The position numbers and the translations under genes are program-made. A DNA stretch of 21,198 nt from a virus: positions 1-21,198 of the IMG/VR virus record IMGVR_UViG_3300031673_000567; one strand, given 5' to 3'. Below are positions 4,193 through 20,068 of this stretch, piece after piece (within the stretch, counting starts at the first letter, position 1; each line of letters begins with the position of its first letter). The notes beneath the pieces were generated by a model. That model had not been told where the DNA came from. It worked only from the letters and a program-made list of their open reading frames with translations, and did no database searches.

Positions 4193-4509
4193 TTGGCTGC
4201 CTGAAATGGCAGCTCGAATGGGGCAAAGATGTTAAGTTTCTTGAGCAAAGAGCGAAAGCCGGCAAGCCTACGCCGGCGTGGGAAAACATGCCGGAGCTTT
4301 ACGATGACCTTATTGATACGTGGAGAGCATTCTGGTCCCTGCACGGACGCAGGCAGTACGGCTACGGACCTTGCCCGTTAAGCGTCGGTGACATTATGGA
4401 ATATGCAAGGCTCTACGAAGTGAGGAAACCGAGAGAATTTTTCGAATACATATCGGCAATGGATAATGAATGGTTGATTTGGTATGGCAACACTAAGAGC
4501 GGCGATTGA
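3788..4509 (+). CDS. Tail assembly chaperone, frameshifted long form (gpGT-like)
   Basis: A -1 shift at 4189 fuses the 134-residue chaperone to 106 more residues in the other frame, giving a predicted 240-residue protein. The extension is open from the slippery site to TGA 4507-4509 and is Trp/Tyr-rich (LKWQLEWGKD, DTWRAFWSLHGRRQYGYG, EYARLYEV). That composition is common in the T part of GT proteins, which binds the tail tube subunit. The last 26 bases overlap the tape measure start. An internal ATG at 4288 exists, but the whole upstream stretch is open and protein-like, so independent initiation is less likely. The frameshift is inferred from the signal and the conserved gene layout. Confidence 0.85.
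4183..4214 (+). promoter_or_regulatory. -1 programmed ribosomal frameshift signal (slippery site plus hairpin)
   Basis: The heptamer A AAA AAC lies at 4183-4189 in the correct zero frame (codons GTA AAA AAC), immediately before the TGA stop. Five bases later, GGCTGCC (4195-4201) can pair with GGCAGCT (4208-4214) across a six-base loop. That gives six Watson-Crick pairs plus one wobble, at the usual stimulator distance. The -1 frame is open from here to 4509. Confidence 0.9.
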
Positions 4510-6478
4510 TGCAAGAGGGGCGACGCGGGGAGCTGCGGAGTTCGACAGGGCTACGGGGAAGATGAAGCGCAGCGCTGGGACAGCGACCAAGTCCATCGAG
4601 AGCGGTTTCGCAAGCGCCATGAGGCGTATCCTGATGTTCGGCGGTGCGGGTGGCGCGATATATACCCTCAAGAAATTCATCGACTCGGCGTCCGATGCAC
4701 AGGAGACGATGAATAAGTTTAATGTCGTTTTTCGAGAAAACGCAAAAGAAGCGGCTGCATGGGCGGAGGAATTCGGAGACAAGGTCGGCAGGGCTACTCA
4801 GGATGTCGCGAATTGGATGGCGGGATTGCAGGATCTGTTTGTCCCGTTGGGTTTTGCGAGAAAAGAAGCTATGGAGCTTTCGAAGAATCTCACAGCCCTT
4901 GCGGTCGATGTTGCCTCTTTCAGCAATAAGGTTGACGCGGAAGTTATACGTGACTTTACATCGGCACTCGTAGGCAACCACGAGACGGTGCGTAAATTCG
5001 GAATTATTATCAGCGAGACTTCTCTTGCCCAGGAAGCCCTTAATCAAAATCTCGGCAAGGCTTATAAAGACCTGACGGATCTGGAGAAGGTCCAGCTTCG
5101 GTATTCGCTTATTCAGAAAGGCACAACCGACGCCCAGGGCGATGCTGTCAGGTCGATGAACGATTACGCCAACCAGGTCAAACGCCTCAATGCGAATTGG
5201 ACGGAAATCAAGACGACTTTGGGCGGCCCGGTGATGGATGTCCTGTCAGATATGCTTGTAGCAATCAATAAAAACGATGAGGCAACAAAGCGATGGACTA
5301 AGAATATGGCGGAAGGTTTTGAAATAGCGTTGCCGGCAGCTAAGAAATCGCTTGGTATCTTAAGTAAGTTAGTAGATCTTGCTCCAGCAAGAATATTTGC
5401 AGATAGCTTCGATAAAGCTGTTTACAGAAGTTTCCCGGAGCACAAAACGCAATACATACCCGGCGGCAAGCCGGAAATGAGGGGCCAGCTTCCGGCGGAA
5501 TCGGAGGAAGCGGCATTGAACAGGCGGCTGCAGGAGGCTTATGCAGGGCCGGCAGCCGGGCCATCGGCGCCAGTCCAGCAAACGGAGCAAGGCATTAAAG
5601 AACGGCAGGAGCTTGAAAGGCGGGTCATAGAGGATACGCGGCAGGGCATTGAAAGCGTTCGCAATCAGGATTATTTGACACGGATGGAGAGAATCAAGAG
5701 CCTCGAAATATATCGGGACGAAAACGCCGCCACACTAAGCGCTGTCGGGGAAGCAAGCAAAATGCTCGATGAAGAGATCCGCAGCGTGGAGCGTTCACGT
5801 CTCGATGCGATGAAGGTATATCGGGCCGAGCTGCAAGAGGATTTCGAGGATTCATCTTTGTATATTTCCGAAAGGTTCGCAGATACCGCCCAATCGATTG
5901 AAGGTTCTATGGGAAATGCCTTTTTCAGTATGATTTCCCAGGGTGCGAGCTGGAAGGATGCTATGACGGGCTTTTTCAGTGACGTCGGCAATGCGTTCGG
6001 CCGGATGGCTTCTGAAATGATGGCCCGGGCGATAATGATGAGTGCAGTATCGGGCATTGGGTCTCTTTTCGGACCAGCACCTATACAAGGTTCCGGACTG
6101 CCAGTAGAGCAAAGATTTGCAAATATTGGCAATCCGGTCCCGAGCGCCATGGGCAACGTGTTCGACAGGGGCCGGTTAGTGCCTATGGCAAACGGTGAAG
6201 TTCTTGACCGCCCGACTTATTTCCCGTTAGCAGATGGCAAGACTGGCGTTGCCGGCGAGGCTGGGCCGGAGCTGGGCTTCTTTCCTTTGCGAAGAAATCG
6301 GGGGCGTCTCGGCCTTGATGCTTCCGGAGGCACGCCGAACATTACGGTCAGCCCTACGCCCGTCAAGATCGTGTTCGTCAAAAACGAAAGAGAAGCGCAG
6401 ATCGAGGCGATGAAAAGCAAAGAGGGCGAGAAAGTTTTCATCCAACACGCAATCCGTAACCGGAATTTGTTAAGGTGA
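4484..6478 (+). CDS. Tail tape measure protein
   Basis: 664 residues starting inside the end of the chaperone extension. A basic N-terminus is followed by a hydrophobic segment (about 50-62) and the tape-measure core: ASDAQETMNKFNVVF, a DVASF-type segment and the ALVGNHETVRKFGI motif. A Pro/Ala/Gln-rich linker (about 335-375) leads to a long charged helix (about 375-460) and a helical ISQGASWKDAMTGFF segment. The C-terminus (GNVFDRGRLVPMANGEVLDRP, then TGVAGEAGPELGFFPLRR) is the lambda gpH-type end, normally cleaved or remodelled during assembly. At about 1.5 angstrom per residue the tail would be near 100 nm. No peptidase motif is obvious inside it. Confidence 0.93.
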   Translation: MATLRAAIDARGATRGAAEFDRATGKMKRSAGTATKSIESGFASAMRRILMFGGAGGAIYTLKKFIDSASDAQETMNKFNVVFRENAKEAAAWAEEFGDKVGRATQDVANWMAGLQDLFVPLGFARKEAMELSKNLTALAVDVASFSNKVDAEVIRDFTSALVGNHETVRKFGIIISETSLAQEALNQNLGKAYKDLTDLEKVQLRYSLIQKGTTDAQGDAVRSMNDYANQVKRLNANWTEIKTTLGGPVMDVLSDMLVAINKNDEATKRWTKNMAEGFEIALPAAKKSLGILSKLVDLAPARIFADSFDKAVYRSFPEHKTQYIPGGKPEMRGQLPAESEEAALNRRLQEAYAGPAAGPSAPVQQTEQGIKERQELERRVIEDTRQGIESVRNQDYLTRMERIKSLEIYRDENAATLSAVGEASKMLDEEIRSVERSRLDAMKVYRAELQEDFEDSSLYISERFADTAQSIEGSMGNAFFSMISQGASWKDAMTGFFSDVGNAFGRMASEMMARAIMMSAVSGIGSLFGPAPIQGSGLPVEQRFANIGNPVPSAMGNVFDRGRLVPMANGEVLDRPTYFPLADGKTGVAGEAGPELGFFPLRRNRGRLGLDASGGTPNITVSPTPVKIVFVKNEREAQIEAMKSKEGEKVFIQHAIRNRNLLR

Positions 6479-12850: not shown

Positions 12851-13306
12851 ATGCTCTGGACAAACAGAGGTAAGTTTTTGCTGCTGGCTTGGGCGTTTCC
12901 CAGAGTTGCGATGCCTACTAATCTTTATGTTGCCCTGGTAACAAGTGCTGTCGCGCCTACGGTAGATATAAATACACTTGGTCAGCTTACGGAAATCGCC
13001 GTCGGCAACGGATACACGACGGGCGGATACCAATTAACGCCGAATGATACCGACTTCGACACAATGACTGAGGATGATACCGGCGACAAGGCACTTGTTC
13101 AGCTAAAAGACCTCGCCTGGACGGCATCGGGTGGGCCGATACCGGATTCAGGCGATGGAGCGAGGTACGCAATACTGACTGATGACAACGGGACAATCGC
13201 GAATAGGCAGGTAATAGCCGCGTGGGACCTGATAACGGACAGATCGTGCACGGATACCCATTCGATTACGCTTGAAGATTGCGAGTTGCAGGCTGTTGAA
13301 CCGTAG
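12851..13306 (+). CDS. Small tail-end virion protein
   Basis: 151 residues, with AAGGAG nine bases before the ATG. The sequence NLYVALVTSAVAPTVDINTL, then TEIAVGNGYTTGGYQLTP, DTGDKALVQLKDLAWTASGGPIPDSG and ARYAILTDDN, is a widespread phage pattern. Proteins with it are encoded after tail tip genes and are annotated as tail or fibre-associated virion proteins. It is probably the last gene of the structural operon, because genes switch to the minus strand afterwards. The exact role is unknown. Confidence 0.7.
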   Translation: MLWTNRGKFLLLAWAFPRVAMPTNLYVALVTSAVAPTVDINTLGQLTEIAVGNGYTTGGYQLTPNDTDFDTMTEDDTGDKALVQLKDLAWTASGGPIPDSGDGARYAILTDDNGTIANRQVIAAWDLITDRSCTDTHSITLEDCELQAVEP

Positions 13307-13466: not shown

Positions 13467-13799
13467 CTACTTAATACGAGAAGTCTCTGCTAACCAAATG
13501 CCTTGCACGGCGTTACCTTCCAGCCATAGCAAAAGAGATTCAGGATTATCCCAATAGACCCATTCAATAGTAAAACGGCCGGGATAAATCCATGGATCTA
13601 TTTTTTTAACCTTCAAAGACGAACTATCGAGCCGTGCATTTACCGCCCAGTCAGGCTGGCCGAGAAGACTTTCGACCGAGTCATTCGACTGCCCTACGGC
13701 TATTGTTTTGTCGCGAAAAATCACCCTCGATTGTACTGATGAGCAACCTGCAACAAGCATGACTCCCAATAACATCGTTGACAGGATTATCACTTTCAT
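13467..13799 (-). CDS. Small lipoprotein with BamE/SmpA-like pattern
   Basis: The start at 13799 is chosen over the upstream ATG (13811) because GGAGG lies five bases before it. The product has 110 residues with a lipoprotein signal peptide: hydrophobic stretch, lipobox LVAGC and Cys19 followed by SS. The mature part has IAVGQSNDSVESLLGQPDW and later a W.Y..RFTIEWVYWDN... segment. This follows the BamE/SmpA-type pattern (small helix, glycine-proline turn, beta sheet), although I would not assign a function from it. It lies against the direction of the tail operon, so it may be a prophage-expressed accessory gene (moron) acting in the envelope. Lysis spanin is unlikely, since it lacks a Pro-rich short form. 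Confidence 0.75.
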   Translation of the reverse strand: MKVIILSTMLLGVMLVAGCSSVQSRVIFRDKTIAVGQSNDSVESLLGQPDWAVNARLDSSSLKVKKIDPWIYPGRFTIEWVYWDNPESLLLWLEGNAVQGIWLAETSRIK

Positions 13800-13814
13800 T
13801 CTAACCTCCATTGA

Positions 13815-14262: not shown

Positions 14263-14460
14263 TTAACTTTTCTTCTTTTGCTTTGGCTTAATGACCTTCC
14301 CTAATAGCCGCTTAGCAACTACCTTATCCTGCTCTTCCGGCGGCAGGTCTTTGATTGAATCTTTCCACGGACCTCTTCTTTGATTCTGCTTGCGTACTCT
14401 TTCGTCAAATTCTTCAATTTCTTTCTTGACGTTCAAAACGTTTTTGCGTAATTTAGCCAT
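14263..14460 (-). CDS. Small basic protein, third member of a mini-ORF family
   Basis: 65 residues starting MAKLRKNVLNVKKEIEEFDE; AAAGGA lies nine bases upstream. The first 20 residues align without gaps to the two ORFs that precede it on this strand: MAKLR or MKKIN at the start, VK at 11-12 and EEFDE at 16-20. The rest is charged and ends in a KPKQKKKS tail. It is the longest member and the one with the best ribosome site. The start overlaps the stop of the preceding ORF. Function unknown; the basic tail suggests nucleic-acid or membrane contact. The same DNA carries a promoter-like sequence on the other strand. Confidence 0.55.
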   Translation of the reverse strand: MAKLRKNVLNVKKEIEEFDERVRKQNQRRGPWKDSIKDLPPEEQDKVVAKRLLGKVIKPKQKKKS

Positions 14461-14522
14461 CGTTTGGAGTCCTTTCCAAATTTAAGGTCCGATTTTTTTG
14501 AGAGAGAGTCGGGCCTCTTTTT
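14426..14522 (+). ncRNA. Array unit 1: promoter, ~60-nt RNA and terminator
   Basis: Plus strand: TTGACG (14426-14431), 17 bases, TAATTT (14449-14454), then a predicted transcript from about 14461. It contains TTTGGA/TCCAAA (14463-14468 with 14475-14480) and a terminator stem GGTCCGA/TCGGGCC (14486-14492 with 14509-14515), followed by TCTTTTT. The promoter overlaps, antisense, the start of the 65-residue mini-ORF. Confidence 0.4.
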
Positions 14523-14605
14523 ACAGTTTTGTCCCAAGCACACTTTTCGTCAAATTCTTCGATTTCTTCCTTGACACTTTTCTTAACTCCGTTTATTTTT
14601 TTCAT
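14453..14605 (-). CDS. Mini-ORF family member 2 (50 residues)
   Basis: ATG 14605, stop 14453-14455. The N-terminus MKKINGVKKSVKEEIEEFDE aligns position for position with its two neighbours. The start overlaps the stop of the previous mini-ORF (TAATG), and its stop overlaps the start of the next by eight bases, so the three could be translated by coupling. No independent Shine-Dalgarno is visible. The second half is encoded across a plus-strand terminator hairpin and is not conserved in the other members. It may be translated, or may be a by-product of a repeated RNA unit. Confidence 0.4.
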   Translation of the reverse strand: MKKINGVKKSVKEEIEEFDEKCAWDKTVKRGPTLSQKNRTLNLERTPNDG

Positions 14606-14659
14606 TATCTTAATTCCGTTTTTGCCCGATTCGTTGTGGTTGGCGAATCGGGCTTTTTT
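14571..14659 (+). ncRNA. Array unit 2: promoter, ~55-nt RNA and terminator
   Basis: Plus strand: TTGACA (14571-14576), 17 bases, TATTTT (14594-14599), predicted start near 14606. A perfect ten-pair stem GCCCGATTCG/CGAATCGGGC (14624-14633 with 14644-14653) is followed directly by six T. This is the strongest terminator of the three. It is antisense to mini-ORFs 1 and 2. Confidence 0.45.
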
Positions 14660-14724
14660 AATTTTTCGTCAAATTCTTCTTTTAATTTCTTGACGTCCGG
14701 ATTGCCATTTCGTAATTTGGCCAT
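14605..14724 (-). CDS. Mini-ORF family member 1 (39 residues)
   Basis: ATG 14724, stop 14605-14607. The N-terminus MAKLRNGNPDVKKLKEEFDE matches the other two members. Only a weak purine stretch (AGAAAG) precedes it. The last third is encoded by the perfect ten-pair hairpin that forms a terminator on the plus strand. Reality as a protein rests on the repeated N-terminal 20 residues. Confidence 0.4.
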   Translation of the reverse strand: MAKLRNGNPDVKKLKEEFDEKLKKPDSPTTTNRAKTELR

Positions 14725-14781
14725 TCTATAGATTTCTTTCTAAGGCCCGATTGCCCGGGTAGAGCATCGGGCCTTTTTTTT
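14690..14781 (+). ncRNA. Array unit 3: promoter, ~57-nt RNA and terminator
   Basis: Plus strand: TTGACG (14690-14695), 17 bases, TAATTT (14713-14718), predicted start near 14725. The stem AAGGCCCGAT/ATCGGGCCTT (14742-14751 with 14766-14775) runs into an eight-T tract ending at 14781. The fourteen-base loop holds CCCGGG. It is antisense to the start of mini-ORF 1. Confidence 0.45.
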
Positions 14782-14796
14782 ACTATTTTCTATTGA

Positions 14797-15128: not shown

Positions 15129-15329
15129 ATGAAAAAAGAATCGCCGGTCCGTACTATTGACTTCGCCAAAGAGCGAGAAATACAGCAAATCAGCTGGCTT
15201 TTGAGGTTTTTTTCTGCTTCGTTTGTTTCTGGCTTTCGATCAGGGCTTGAATTGATACTTCAAGGCCATCTTTCAATCCTTCCCAAAAATCAGATTCGAC
15301 AACCGGCGATCCCTTTGCATCCAGTTTAG
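15129..15329 (+). CDS. Possible small protein behind a regulated promoter
   Basis: ATG 15129 with a full AGGAGG (15119-15124) and an upstream TATAAT with palindromes. The first 20 residues are charged and protein-like (MKKESPVRTIDFAKEREIQQ). From about 15190 on it runs antisense through the 3' end of the gene on the other strand and its residues look less natural. Either this is a real 66-residue protein overlapping a convergent gene by 140 bases, or it is the stub of a regulator cut off by a rearrangement. The strong ribosome site favours translation of at least the N-terminus. Confidence 0.35.
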   Translation: MKKESPVRTIDFAKEREIQQISWLLRFFSASFVSGFRSGLELILQGHLSILPKNQIRQPAIPLHPV

Positions 15330-15492
15330 CCACCTCTCTTAGTTGTGACGGCAAGTGCTGCCAAAGAAGCAAGGCTCCGGCACAATCTTCTTGAGCAATA
15401 GCGCCGACATGCGCACAAAACTCAACAAAACTCTCTTTGACCGTCTCTGGAATCGGCCACCCAGTCTTAATTTTTTCTATATTTTTCATCAT
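15190..15492 (-). CDS. Hypothetical protein of the control region (100 residues)
   Basis: The start is taken at 15492 (MMKNIEK), with GAGGG just upstream. The longer open frame to 15840 would run through the divergent promoter and the RHH gene and is not credible. The protein has an amphipathic helical body (PETVKESFVEFCAHVGAIAQED, then ALLLWQHLPSQLREVAKL), a segment DFWEGLKDGLEVSIQALIES and a basic end (QKQTKQKKTSKAS). No family recognised. It is divergent from the RHH gene and shares an operator-rich promoter region, so it is probably a target or partner of that regulator. Confidence 0.65.
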   Translation of the reverse strand: MMKNIEKIKTGWPIPETVKESFVEFCAHVGAIAQEDCAGALLLWQHLPSQLREVAKLDAKGSPVVESDFWEGLKDGLEVSIQALIESQKQTKQKKTSKAS

Positions 15493-15860: not shown

Positions 15861-16466
15861 ATGCGACCGGCAGTCAAACAAATTAATTCAGGGCAGACGG
15901 CTCAAAAAGCTTCCTTTGCCGGTCGCTCCGTCTGTCCCCTATTTGATAATACTCAGTTTAAACAATGCTCTAAATGCAAACAAAGCAAAAAACTTTCAGA
16001 GTTTAATGGAGATTCTGCGAGAAAAGACGGCTACCGATCTTGGTGCAAAAGTTGTACAAGGCTAATAGATAAACAATATAGCCAAACTGAACGACACAAA
16101 AAAATACGCAAGTTGTATCGCCAAACCAAAAAATATAAAAAAATAAATTCACAGCATCAAATAAGATATAGAAAACGTTATCCTCAAAAAATAGCTGCAC
16201 ACAACGCTTTGAACCGATATATACCTCTCGGAAAGATTCAGAAACCTGATAAATACAGATGCTTTTGTGGTGAACATGCCAAAGAATATCATCATTACTT
16301 AGGTTATTCACCCGAACATTTTTTTGATGTGATTCCTGTTTGCCGTCTTTGTCATGCGAAAATTCATAGAAATCAAAACAATCGACAGCGGGGCGGGCGG
16401 ATAAAAAGCATACCTTTGCCGGTTCGCGGTCTGCCCGCTCTTTTATTTGCGAGGAAATCAAGATGA
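15861..16466 (+). CDS. HNH-type endonuclease-like protein with zinc finger
   Basis: 201 residues; GGAG is seven bases before the ATG. Residues 36-66 hold CSKCKQSKKLSEF and WCKSC, a four-Cys finger common at the N-terminus of phage HNH proteins. A very basic middle (KKIRKLYRQTKKYKK..., RYRKRYPQKIAAHNALNRYI) follows. The C-terminal part has YRCFCG, YHHYLGYSPEHFFDVIPVCRLCHAKIH (about 142-168), an HNH fold with HH, CxxC and a terminal H. This fits a free-standing homing endonuclease. It is AT-rich and its two ends carry related hairpin repeats, as if inserted. The stop overlaps the next start (ATGA), so it is integrated into the operon. Confidence 0.75.
   Translation: MRPAVKQINSGQTAQKASFAGRSVCPLFDNTQFKQCSKCKQSKKLSEFNGDSARKDGYRSWCKSCTRLIDKQYSQTERHKKIRKLYRQTKKYKKINSQHQIRYRKRYPQKIAAHNALNRYIPLGKIQKPDKYRCFCGEHAKEYHHYLGYSPEHFFDVIPVCRLCHAKIHRNQNNRQRGGRIKSIPLPVRGLPALLFARKSR
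15863..15940 (+). repeat. Interleaved inverted repeats at the HNH gene start (repeat copy 1)
   Basis: GCGACCGGCA (15863-15872) is the exact complement of TGCCGGTCGC (15917-15926). GGGCAGACGG (15891-15900) pairs with CCGTCTGTCC (15928-15937), ten pairs with one wobble. The two pairs interleave, so RNA could form a pseudoknot or two exclusive hairpins. The first strand begins at the G of the ATG. Confidence 0.7.
16391..16440 (+). repeat. Hairpin repeat at the HNH gene end (repeat copy 2)
   Basis: GGGCGGGCGGATAAAAAGC, then CCTTTGCCGGT and GTCTGCCCGC, aligns with copy 1 over roughly 50-75 bp. GCGGGCGGA (16393-16401) pairs with TCTGCCCGC (16430-16438). The first stem of copy 1 is reduced here to GCGAA/TTCGC (16356-16360 with 16423-16427). 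Followed by TCTTTTATTT. Confidence 0.6.
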
Positions 16467-16831
16467 AAAAGTGGACTTATGAAGCTAAAAGGCAGGACGG
16501 CGATGTGATCGCTACGGTCAGGATCGAGCACGAGGATACCGACTCCGAGTATTTCCCGCTGCATCATTTCGTGCTGCACAGTCCTACGGGTTTTGAAATG
16601 GGTTATGACGGCTCAGGCCCTGCTGATCTGGCTTATTCGATCCTAATACATTGGTTCCTCAGCTATAAGCTCTCGTTGGAAGAGGCACAGGAAGAAGCCC
16701 AGGCTCATCATCAGGAGTTCAAGCGGGCGTTTGTCGCCAAAGAACGGGACCATCTTGTTATCTCTGATAGCGATATTGAGAAATGGTGGGTAGGGCAGGA
16801 AGAAAAAGTGGAAGCGGCAAGGGCGATATGA
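16463..16831 (+). CDS. DUF6166-like protein
   Basis: 122 residues, starting in an ATGA overlap and preceded by AGGAAA. The segment LHHFVLHSPTGFEMGYDGSG, then PADLAYSILIHWF and a later HHQEFKRAFVA, ending with DIEKWW, matches the DUF6166 pattern (hSPtGFeWGYgGSGPAxLAxxIL...yqxFKxxvVa...IxxW). Proteins of this family are common in phages and plasmids and have no established function. The next gene overlaps by four bases. The family call is from the motif. Confidence 0.75.
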   Translation: MKKWTYEAKRQDGDVIATVRIEHEDTDSEYFPLHHFVLHSPTGFEMGYDGSGPADLAYSILIHWFLSYKLSLEEAQEEAQAHHQEFKRAFVAKERDHLVISDSDIEKWWVGQEEKVEAARAI

Positions 16832-17839: not shown

Positions 17840-18820
17840 TTACAAGTCCATAGAGTCAAGAACATCGGTGGCATTAGCAAGGTCTGCGCGGAGGATATGA
17901 GCGTAGGTCTGTTCGGTTGTACGAATTGAGGCATGGCCGAGCATCTTTGAGACAATCGCTATTAGTACACCCTTGAGCAGCAACTGCGTCGCGAACCAAT
18001 GGCGCATAGCGTGCGGTCCGAACTGTGGAATTTCGGCTTTCGCCGCAACCCGGTAGCACATCAGCAGCAGGGCATTCGGCGTGGCCGGCTTGATCCGCGG
18101 CAGGATTTCCCTGGCCGTTTTATTCAGCGGGATCGACCGCCGCTTACGACCCTTGCCGGTAATCGTCAGTGTCGATAGGTCGGCACTGATAGAAGCCGGA
18201 CGCATTTCGTAGAATTCCGTCGCCCGCAATCCCGTATGTGCCAGGAATAAAAGCCTGTCCCGGGCCAATGGCGATGCGTTTGTGATAATCGCATCGAATT
18301 CATCGGGCGACAGAAAGCGGCTATCGGGAGGTTCTTCGGCCAGCATTTTGACTTCGGCTGCGGGATTGGCGATTTTGTACCGGCCGGCATAGAACCTGCA
18401 GAACGATTTGATCGCCGTCAGGTGTGCGTTTAAGGTCCGGTTAATATTTCCCTGGTCGCGGAGTTGGTAGAGATATTCATTGATATGCACCGCCTCGACC
18501 TGCTGAATACGCAGAACGCTTTTAGGCAGAGAACCAAGGAACCGTGCCATGACCATTCGATAATGCCCCTGTGTTCGAAGTGTATGCCGTTTAATATGTC
18601 GGTAGAATTTTTCGCAAACTGTCGCAACCGATTCCGAAGATATGACGTCACCGGATCTGATGAGCTTTTCCTGTGCCTCGATTTCTGCGTAAAATGCAAC
18701 GGCTTGGGCCTTTTCCATAAAGACATGGGACCCGCTGAAAATGTAATGAGTATTTCGATTAGTAGCGCGCCATCGCACCCGCCACCTGCAAAGGTCTTTA
18801 ACGTAGCCTAATGAAGCCAT
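17840..18820 (-). CDS. int: Tyrosine-type site-specific integrase
   Basis: 326 residues from ATG 18820; a GTG start nine bases upstream is possible but lies inside the TTGACA repeats. The N-terminal arm-binding part (about 1-60) is followed by a SAM-like core-binding domain (about 65-150) and the catalytic domain. Visible catalytic residues, numbered from the ATG, are Arg199 in AHTGLRATE, Lys223 in GKGRKRR, His270 and Arg273 in HAMRHWFATQ, His296 in LGHASIRTT and the nucleophile Tyr306 in EQTYAHI. It inserts the phage into the tRNA-Gly gene whose 3' half lies 118 bases upstream. It faces the 98-residue genes tail to tail with only 12 bases between stops. No excisionase is recognised nearby; the RHH protein is one candidate. 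Confidence 0.95.
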   Translation of the reverse strand: MASLGYVKDLCRWRVRWRATNRNTHYIFSGSHVFMEKAQAVAFYAEIEAQEKLIRSGDVISSESVATVCEKFYRHIKRHTLRTQGHYRMVMARFLGSLPKSVLRIQQVEAVHINEYLYQLRDQGNINRTLNAHLTAIKSFCRFYAGRYKIANPAAEVKMLAEEPPDSRFLSPDEFDAIITNASPLARDRLLFLAHTGLRATEFYEMRPASISADLSTLTITGKGRKRRSIPLNKTAREILPRIKPATPNALLLMCYRVAAKAEIPQFGPHAMRHWFATQLLLKGVLIAIVSKMLGHASIRTTEQTYAHILRADLANATDVLDSMDL

Positions 18821-18822
18821 CT

Positions 18823-18862
18823 TTGACACAACCTTGACAGAAATCTTGACATTTTTTTGACA
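18823..18862 (+). repeat. Four phased TTGACA repeats (probable integrase arm sites)
   Basis: TTGACA occurs at 18823-18828, 18834-18839, 18846-18851 and 18857-18862, at 11, 12 and 11-base steps, so all four face the same side of the helix. They sit between the integrase start and the tRNA half. Related sites occur beyond the core: TTGACA at 19062 and inverted TGTCA at 19074. This is the expected layout of arm-type binding sites for a heterobivalent integrase. Confidence 0.65.
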
Positions 18863-19310: not shown

Positions 19311-19508
19311 ATGAAAGATATAATCAAATTCACCCTAACAGTTATTGCCAGCACGGTAATCGGTTTCGCGTCTCACGTCTGGTATCTTGAGAACGTTCAT
19401 GCCAAGGATTCCGGCGAGACAATTCCGTTGGCCAGCGTGGTCAATTCGCCGGAGTCTTTTTCCTGCACCGACTTGGACCCGAATTATTTTGAATGGGACG
19501 AAAGATGA
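19311..19508 (+). CDS. Small membrane-anchored or exported protein
   Basis: 65 residues; TAGGAGATAGAAG precedes the ATG. Residues 1-22 combine a short basic start (MKDIIKF) and a hydrophobic stretch (TLTVIASTVIGFASHVW), followed by YLENVHAKDSG. This is either an uncleaved anchor or a signal peptide with a possible AxA-like site near VHA-KD. The remaining ~35 residues are acidic and hold one Cys. No family recognised. Its end overlaps the start of the HNH gene by four bases. Confidence 0.6.
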   Translation: MKDIIKFTLTVIASTVIGFASHVWYLENVHAKDSGETIPLASVVNSPESFSCTDLDPNYFEWDER

Positions 19509-20068
19509 AAGATGTATATTTGTGCAAGATATGCGGCGCAATTATTCCGAAGGAAAATAATTATCGGCGTCCTCGTTATTGCAGCCAGCCATGCTATCAG
19601 ATTGATCACAAAGCAAAGCAGGTGCGAATCAAATGCGCTTTTTGTGGAAAAGGCTTTCTGCGCCCAGCCAGAAAATCGGCACGAAAAAAATACTGCTCGA
19701 ATCAATGCTGCTATGCTGCTCGGCTCAGAATAGGCGCTGAATATGTCAATCAAAAAGGGTATGTGTATACAAAAGTCGCCGCTAAAAAGTATCAACTCAA
19801 ACACCGTTTGGTTATGGAGCAAATCTTGGGGCGTAAATTGAAAGGGATAGAAAGTGTACATCACAAGAACGGCAAGAGAGCGGACAATAGGGTGGACAAC
19901 CTTATCTTGTTTGACAGTAATTCTGCTCATGTTAAATATCATAATGACTTATTCAATGGGGCACACCCCAAAGACAGTCCAGCAGCCATTAAGAAGCGAG
20001 TTGCCTCAAGGCGAAGAAACCAAGAAAGGGCAAGTGCAGGGACAGAAGTGCATTACTCAAGTATTTAG
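19505..20068 (+). CDS. HNH homing endonuclease with two zinc-ribbon motifs
   Basis: The start at 19505 (ATGA overlap with the previous stop) gives 187 residues; the ATG at 19493 is an in-frame alternative. Two Cys pairs near the N-terminus (CKICG...RYCSQPCY and CAFCGKGF...KKYCSNQCC, about residues 6-67) are zinc ribbons. The HNH motif is complete: LKHRLVMEQILGRKLKG, then ESVHHKNGKRADNRVDNLIL (about 95-131), with HH, the N of DNR and the downstream NL. This is the type of free-standing homing endonuclease seen in many phages. The C-terminal end is basic and overlaps the start of the 3D-domain gene. Confidence 0.88.
   Translation: MKDVYLCKICGAIIPKENNYRRPRYCSQPCYQIDHKAKQVRIKCAFCGKGFLRPARKSARKKYCSNQCCYAARLRIGAEYVNQKGYVYTKVAAKKYQLKHRLVMEQILGRKLKGIESVHHKNGKRADNRVDNLILFDSNSAHVKYHNDLFNGAHPKDSPAAIKKRVASRRRNQERASAGTEVHYSSI

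Follow-up and report, generated by a model that had tools for sequence, protein, structure and literature searches.

Does a three-fold repeat in the DNA of an uncultivated phage specify an array of small RNAs, a family of tiny, coupled proteins, or both? This question was raised by a preliminary description of the locus, the observation of which is confirmed here, and the evidence presented below favors both, combined in a single antisense mechanism that the earlier account did not name.

Genomic context of the array

The window, i.e., the whole stretch of DNA that was analysed, is a virus record of 21,198 bases. A siphophage tail module on its plus strand ends at position 13306, and its tail protein is approximately 33% identical to tail proteins of Pseudomonas, Stenotrophomonas, and other siphophages; the search with this tail protein returned no host genome. 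The array is housed in a minus-strand operon of small genes, which runs from 15027 to 13467, and the tail operon points at it. No strong plus-strand terminator was found between the end of the tail operon (13306) and the first ORF of the array, u1. The integrase gene of the window is located at 17840-18829. Two plus-strand ORFs (15861-16466 and 19493-20068), in which zinc-finger and HNH-like motifs were recognized by eye, are probably homing endonucleases, while a further plus-strand ORF (16463-16831) matches DUF6166 (E 1e-16), a phage-associated family of unknown function.

Composition of the array

The array consists of three units, the parts of which are as follows (positions are those of the window, and the ends of the RNAs are predicted):

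14263-14460, minus strand: u1 ORF, 65 aa (MAKLRKNVLNVKKEIEEFDERVRKQ...), the full-length gene of the family, with orthologues in the contigs L004, L005, and L006
14402-14415, plus strand: repeat TCGTCAAATTCTTC of unit 1, its start 24 nt from the -35, corresponding to u1 codons 16-20 (EEFDE)
14426-14454, plus strand: antisense promoter of u1, TTGACG-17-TAATTT
14461-14522, plus strand: predicted antisense RNA 1, ~62 nt, with two stem-loops
14463-14480, minus strand: u1 leader hairpin, TTTGGA-AAGGAC-TCCAAA, with the Shine-Dalgarno sequence in its 6-nt loop
14484-14522, plus strand: intrinsic terminator of unit 1 (stem ~14484-14516)
14453-14605, minus strand: u2 ORF, 50 aa, overlapping the u1 start by 8 nt
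14547-14560, plus strand: repeat TCGTCAAATTCTTC of unit 2
14571-14599, plus strand: antisense promoter of u2, TTGACA-17-TATTTT
14606-14659, plus strand: predicted antisense RNA 2, ~54 nt, a single-stranded 5' part followed by the terminator
14624-14659, plus strand: intrinsic terminator of unit 2 (stem ~14624-14653)
14605-14724, minus strand: u3 ORF, 39 aa (MAKLRNGNPDVKKLKEEFDEKLKKPDSPTTTNRAKTELR), its stop overlapping the u2 start (TAATG)
14666-14679, plus strand: repeat TCGTCAAATTCTTC of unit 3
14690-14718, plus strand: antisense promoter of u3, TTGACG-17-TAATTT
14725-14782, plus strand: predicted antisense RNA 3, ~57 nt
14742-14782, plus strand: intrinsic terminator of unit 3 (stem ~14742-14775)

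The sequence TCGTCAAATTCTTC, which the preliminary description reported as common to the three repeats, is indeed exact at 14402, 14547, and 14666 and occurs nowhere else exactly in the window; a 31-nt repeat is likewise present in three copies, the other two being 87-94% identical to the first. The three overlapping minus-strand ORFs (65, 50, and 39 aa) also align as claimed, without gaps over their first 20 residues, with V11, K12, E16, and E20 invariant. These 20 N-terminal residues are the part of u2 that is homologous to u1, the rest being readthrough of the u1 leader, and the u2 frame survives an in-frame 9-nt deletion in L004. The range originally given for the array (14402-14781) has to be extended, since the u1 ORF reaches 14263 and the third terminator ends at approximately 14782; the third ORF starts at 14724.

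The complement of the u1 leader hairpin forms the 5' hairpin of predicted antisense RNA 1, the 5' loop of which is complementary to the Shine-Dalgarno region of u1. A shorter version of this leader hairpin is present in u3 and none is found in u2, which is without a clear Shine-Dalgarno sequence.

Predicted antisense promoters abut the start codons

The plus-strand motif TTGAC(G/A)-17-TA(A/T)TTT, described previously for each repeat, has its sole exact matches in the window at these three sites, and allowing one mismatch yields seven matches versus 0.71 expected. The gap between the -10 and the CAT of the start codon is 3 nt in u1, u2, and u3, and the predicted plus-strand RNA covers the 48-56 nt that separate the start-codon edge from the far end of the terminator stem, including the leader. 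Because each predicted plus-strand start lies just outside the minus-strand start codon, from where transcription would proceed through the leader and the Shine-Dalgarno sequence, each unit is predicted to specify a cis-antisense RNA over the translation-initiation region. When the 36 gene starts of the window are ranked by their start-anchored antisense promoters, the three units come first, joint third, and joint third.

The promoters differ in strength. Only that of u2 is strong (10/12, a score reached at approximately 2 of 42,344 positions), while the -10 hexamers of u1 and u3 are weak, matching the consensus at 3/6 positions (T1, A2, and T6 are kept), with about one equally good site per kb per strand. 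As had been pointed out in the preliminary description, the promoter and the coding block are not independent: when the ORFs are recoded synonymously, 2-7% of trials give a promoter score as high as that observed (P ~0.02-0.07 per unit). The promoter is therefore not simply forced by the protein, and for one unit alone this evidence would not be conclusive. Codon 4 is TTA in u1 and u3 and ATA in u2, either of which supplies the TA of the -10 on the opposite strand. In comparisons between the paralogues, 10-12 of the 12 hexamer positions are kept versus 3-8 of the 17 spacer positions (Fisher P 0.0007-0.002), the spacer also being coding; this conservation is partly confounded with the coding sequence, as the -35 lies within the conserved VK codons.

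Both strands of 228 kb, comprising the phage group and other fetched loci, were scanned for T-tract hairpins that have an opposed ORF start, with a promoter anchored at this start, ahead of them. This combined scan listed seven units (three in the window, two in L004, and one each in L005 and L006) together with one unrelated place, listed twice. In all seven units, distributed over four records, the promoter start abuts the opposite start codon and a terminator follows within ~30 nt. Hence, a search rule based on an opposed promoter, a -10 located ~3 nt from a start codon, and a terminator in the leader finds every unit with one unrelated match in 228 kb. A start-codon-anchored antisense TTGACA-18-TAACCT is also present in the 114-aa lipoprotein-like gene at 13467-13811 (minus strand), without a terminator after it.

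Compact units with strong terminators could also be phage small RNAs that act in trans on host or other phage mRNAs, the overlap with the ORFs being incidental. The Rfam scan of the window gave no match at gathering, and the best sub-threshold similarity was to unrelated sRNAs; while this resemblance is in keeping with such a role, its score is far under the gathering value (20.6 versus 41 bits), and in every unit the leader is perfectly complementary and the geometry at the start codon is fixed, both of which indicate a target in cis. We regard action in trans as highly improbable.

Terminators oppose the ORFs

Each promoter is followed by a stem-loop with a T tract, as previously claimed, but the distance from the -10 to the stem is approximately 23-30 nt rather than the 32-45 stated at the time. 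Of the T-tract hairpins in the 21-kb window, the four strongest are the three array stems and one hairpin inside the integrase gene; the fold z-scores of the array stems are -5.2, -4.6, and -3.7. All copies have their T tract on the plus (antisense) side. The stem of u1 reaches -17.4 kcal/mol on the antisense strand versus -5.6 on the mRNA strand, where its G-U pairs become A-C mismatches, whereas the hairpins of window u3, L005 u1, and L004 u2 fold slightly better on the mRNA strand. The leader hairpin was also considered as an mRNA element for u1, and this candidate was rejected, its stability being on the wrong strand.

The preliminary description proposed weighing covariation in these stems against codon substitution in the minus frames. 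On the RNA side, the u2 terminators of the window and L004 differ by two compensatory pairs, and in the 6-row set every stem cell pairs, while sliding controls drop to 16-52%; the shuffle control (40/500) is weak, given the small number of sequences. The codon side of the comparison is given below.

The terminators are better evidenced than the weak -10 boxes of u1 and u3, and it may be asked whether they serve as transcriptional insulators that keep the convergent late (tail) operon out of the minus operon, the promoters being a by-product of the coding block. The tail operon does end at 13306 facing the array, with no strong plus-strand terminator before u1. However, every unit has one terminator, located in its leader, and the remaining genes of the minus operon have none. 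A terminator of -21.8 kcal/mol (L015 1845) already closes the convergent operon of L006, in which u1 nevertheless retains one of its own. Furthermore, neither the fixed 3-nt promoter gap nor the silent synonymous sites described below would be predicted by insulation, which we consider unlikely.

Related phages carry three, two, or one units

The search for the unit in related phages that the preliminary description had called for yielded few homologues. Orthologues of u1 are present in three IMG/VR contigs (L004, L005, and L006) at 74-86% identity, and these carry 2, 1, and 1 units, respectively, with promoter and terminator intact. A search with the DNA pattern GGACTCCAAACGATGG led to the same three contigs and to unrelated chance matches. 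No homologue of u1 was found in GTDB genomes or, by tblastn, in phage records, and the array had no DNA match among 50,697 phage records.

A common flank, CAAAAATAATCAATAGA.AATAGTAAA, is directly adjacent to u3 (window), u2 (L004), or u1 (L005), which implies an array of 3, 2, or 1 units with its edge at the terminator; the single unit of L006 has a different flank. The array has probably grown by partial tandem duplication of the terminator, the leader, and the first 20 codons, upstream of the full-length u1. Several tail-gene relatives are without the array (L028, L032, L036, L038, and others), which shows the units to be accessory. Geometry, conservation, terminator polarity, and the unit numbers (3, 2, 1, and 1) are shown by the DNA sequence itself.

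The surroundings of the array vary as well. In L005, a 178-aa lipoprotein-like gene (4358-4894) takes the place occupied by a 64-aa membrane protein in the window and in L004, a replacement indicative of the exchange of cassettes upstream of the array. In L004 (2076-2105) and L005 (5202-5232), the hairpin CAATTGATCGAGCGACAATTG is located between u1 and the gene that follows; it is absent from the window, where a 47-aa gene occupies that place. A small plus-strand ORF (MKKESPVRTIDFAKEREIQQISWLL..., 15129-15329) is antisense to the 3' end of the first gene of the minus operon (15190-15492, minus strand). Corresponding overlap regions exist in the relatives (L004 1042-1372, L005 3915-4293, and L006 335-731), in which this first gene is swapped for unrelated proteins; those of L004, L005, and L006 share a near-identical ...(S/N)SKSG tail inside the overlap, i.e., the heads are swapped and the overlap is kept. 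The gene upstream of the operon varies among the relatives, its L004 version being weakly similar to ribbon-helix-helix (RHH) repressors, and the AlphaFold model of the candidate repressor of the window (15193-15492) was too poor for use (51).

Selection on u1 and the nature of its product

Over codons 21-64 of the u1 orthologues, dN is 0.08-0.21 versus a dS of 0.27-0.77, and u1 is therefore a real protein gene under purifying selection in this region. Codons 2-20, which hold the antisense promoter, show 0 synonymous changes among the four orthologues, versus 17 synonymously variable codons in 21-64 (P 6e-4), and neighbouring genes do vary at early synonymous sites. This silence could reflect a recent recombination of the 5' part, given that the hairpin loop is also identical in the window, L004, and L006. 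The loop of L005 differs, yet its stem and T tract are the same, and this contig deviates by a single change in the leader and by a single amino-acid change in the first 20 codons.

Purifying selection on u1 and the N-terminal block conserved between the paralogues would also be expected if only proteins were at stake, i.e., a short gene with partial N-terminal duplications, in which the promoter and hairpins are functionless or the hairpins are mRNA leader structures; the three hairpins that fold slightly better on the mRNA strand fit the latter. The earlier remark that terminators facing the ORFs are hard to reconcile with proteins alone is nevertheless borne out, as the T tracts are always on the antisense side and the u1 stem is good only on that strand. 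Together with the zero synonymous variation over the antisense promoter, this makes a purely protein-based explanation very unlikely.

The u1 protein is highly charged and predicted to be helical, without a membrane segment. Its AlphaFold model is helical and of low confidence (mean pLDDT 71, pTM 0.32). Comparison with Pfam, PHROGs, NCBIfam, PADLOC, and the PDB returned insignificant matches only, and there was no match to toxin or defence families. Encoded in a small-gene operon beside a weakly RHH-like gene, u1 is perhaps a lysogeny or accessory protein whose level has to stay low.

These properties bear on whether the array is of the type I toxin-antitoxin kind, similar to ldr/rdl or symE/symR, with toxic mini-proteins and the RNAs as antitoxins. 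Such an explanation would add a claim on the protein to the antisense mechanism favored here. The combination of a small ORF and a (predicted) cis-antisense RNA is found in seven units in four records, three of them in tandem as in LDR, and non-hydrophobic type I toxins are known (SymE and RalR). The small hydrophobic membrane toxin of ldr/rdl, sib/ibs, and hok/sok has no counterpart in u1, with its charged, helical character and its lack of a toxin or defence family match. A toxin-antitoxin function is conceivable, but on balance we do not expect it.

A model for the array

Taken together, the above makes it probable that the array is a tandem series of small minus-strand genes, each accompanied by a Sar-like antisense RNA encoded in cis. 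For transcription, repression, and coupling we infer the following. From a backward-pointing promoter within codons 1-12, an RNA of ~54-62 nt would be transcribed, beginning at the edge of the start codon; this RNA would pass the Shine-Dalgarno sequence and the leader and stop at the intrinsic terminator. Base pairing with the leader of the mRNA, proposed for antisense RNA 1 and, by homology, for RNAs 2 and 3, may keep ribosomes from entering, as is the case for Sar and SymR. As the stop of u3 lies on the start of u2 and u2 overlaps the start of u1, translating one ORF could open the next; ribosomes leaving one ORF would thus open the following leader, and u3 and u2 may be coupled regulatory leaders as much as proteins.

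A more elaborate version of this model is a serial antisense gate, in which the three RNAs each guard one start in a coupled chain, u1 is produced only once the chain is open, and its level is adjusted by the phage through the number of units (3, 2, or 1). This is speculative, and we consider it unlikely. Since related phages possess three, two, or one units, the effect of unit number and coupling is directly testable.

Comparison with known systems

The textbook example of an antisense switch in a phage is Sar of P22, located in the immunity I region of P22-like Salmonella phages; it blocks ribosome entry on the ant mRNA leader, and SymR does so for symE. A P22-type sar/ant locus, employed as a positive control for the geometry, has a -10 that ends 3 nt before the ant start codon, the same gap as in the array units, and a terminator stem that ends 64 nt from the start-codon edge, versus 48-56 nt in the array. 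Like the P22 locus, the array would be a phage cis-antisense arrangement with a promoter within the first codons of the target gene, a start at the start-codon edge, an RNA over the Shine-Dalgarno region and leader, and two predicted stem-loops, the 3' one being an intrinsic terminator. Both also lie in a moron-like small-gene region with small DNA-binding repressors near; the RHH-like neighbour in L004 recalls the Arc/Mnt surroundings of sar, by analogy only. The two differ in that P22 has one unit and the array three in tandem, and in their targets, Ant in the one case and a 65-aa charged protein in the other. No Ant-type target and no sequence similarity to sar was detected (no DNA match among the 50,697 phage records and no u1 protein match).

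In the LDR array of E. coli, a direct repeat that contains a 35-aa ORF and specifies a ~60-nt cis-antisense RNA is present in three tandem copies (PMC4147584). With ldrABC/rdlABC, the array shares tandem units of a mini-ORF and a cis-antisense RNA, the latter predicted in the phage. Rdl, in contrast, overlaps a part of the 5' UTR that does not include the ribosome binding site, whereas the array RNA would cover this site. The LDR repeats are long and chromosomal, and in each of them the toxic peptide Ldr has a promoter of its own; in the array, the ORFs overlap one another and the protein is non-hydrophobic. The promoter of SymR is embedded in symE, and the RNA, which forms two strong hairpins, extends over the ribosome binding site (PMC1891008). 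This embedded promoter, the covered Shine-Dalgarno sequence, the two strong hairpins, and the non-hydrophobic target are all shared by the array as predicted; symE/symR differs in being single-copy and chromosomal, SymE (113 aa) is unrelated to u1, and SymR also covers the start codon. In hok/mok/sok, the target of the antisense RNA is a leader ORF whose translation is coupled to that of the following ORF, a possible parallel to u3-u2-u1, although that system is single-copy, Hok is a membrane toxin, and there is no homology to the array.

These comparisons demonstrate that both halves of the layout have already been described, and the statement in the preliminary description that no known system has it does not stand: the P22 sar/ant and SymE/SymR systems share the antisense geometry, and LDR has the three tandem repeats. 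To our knowledge, the antisense start-site geometry and a tandem array have not been described together in a phage, few unrelated examples of the Sar start-codon geometry have been reported, and tandem units that are coupled in translation and center on a charged, non-membrane protein are unusual. A non-homologous copy of the Sar geometry in an uncultivated phage suggests that this design has arisen convergently.
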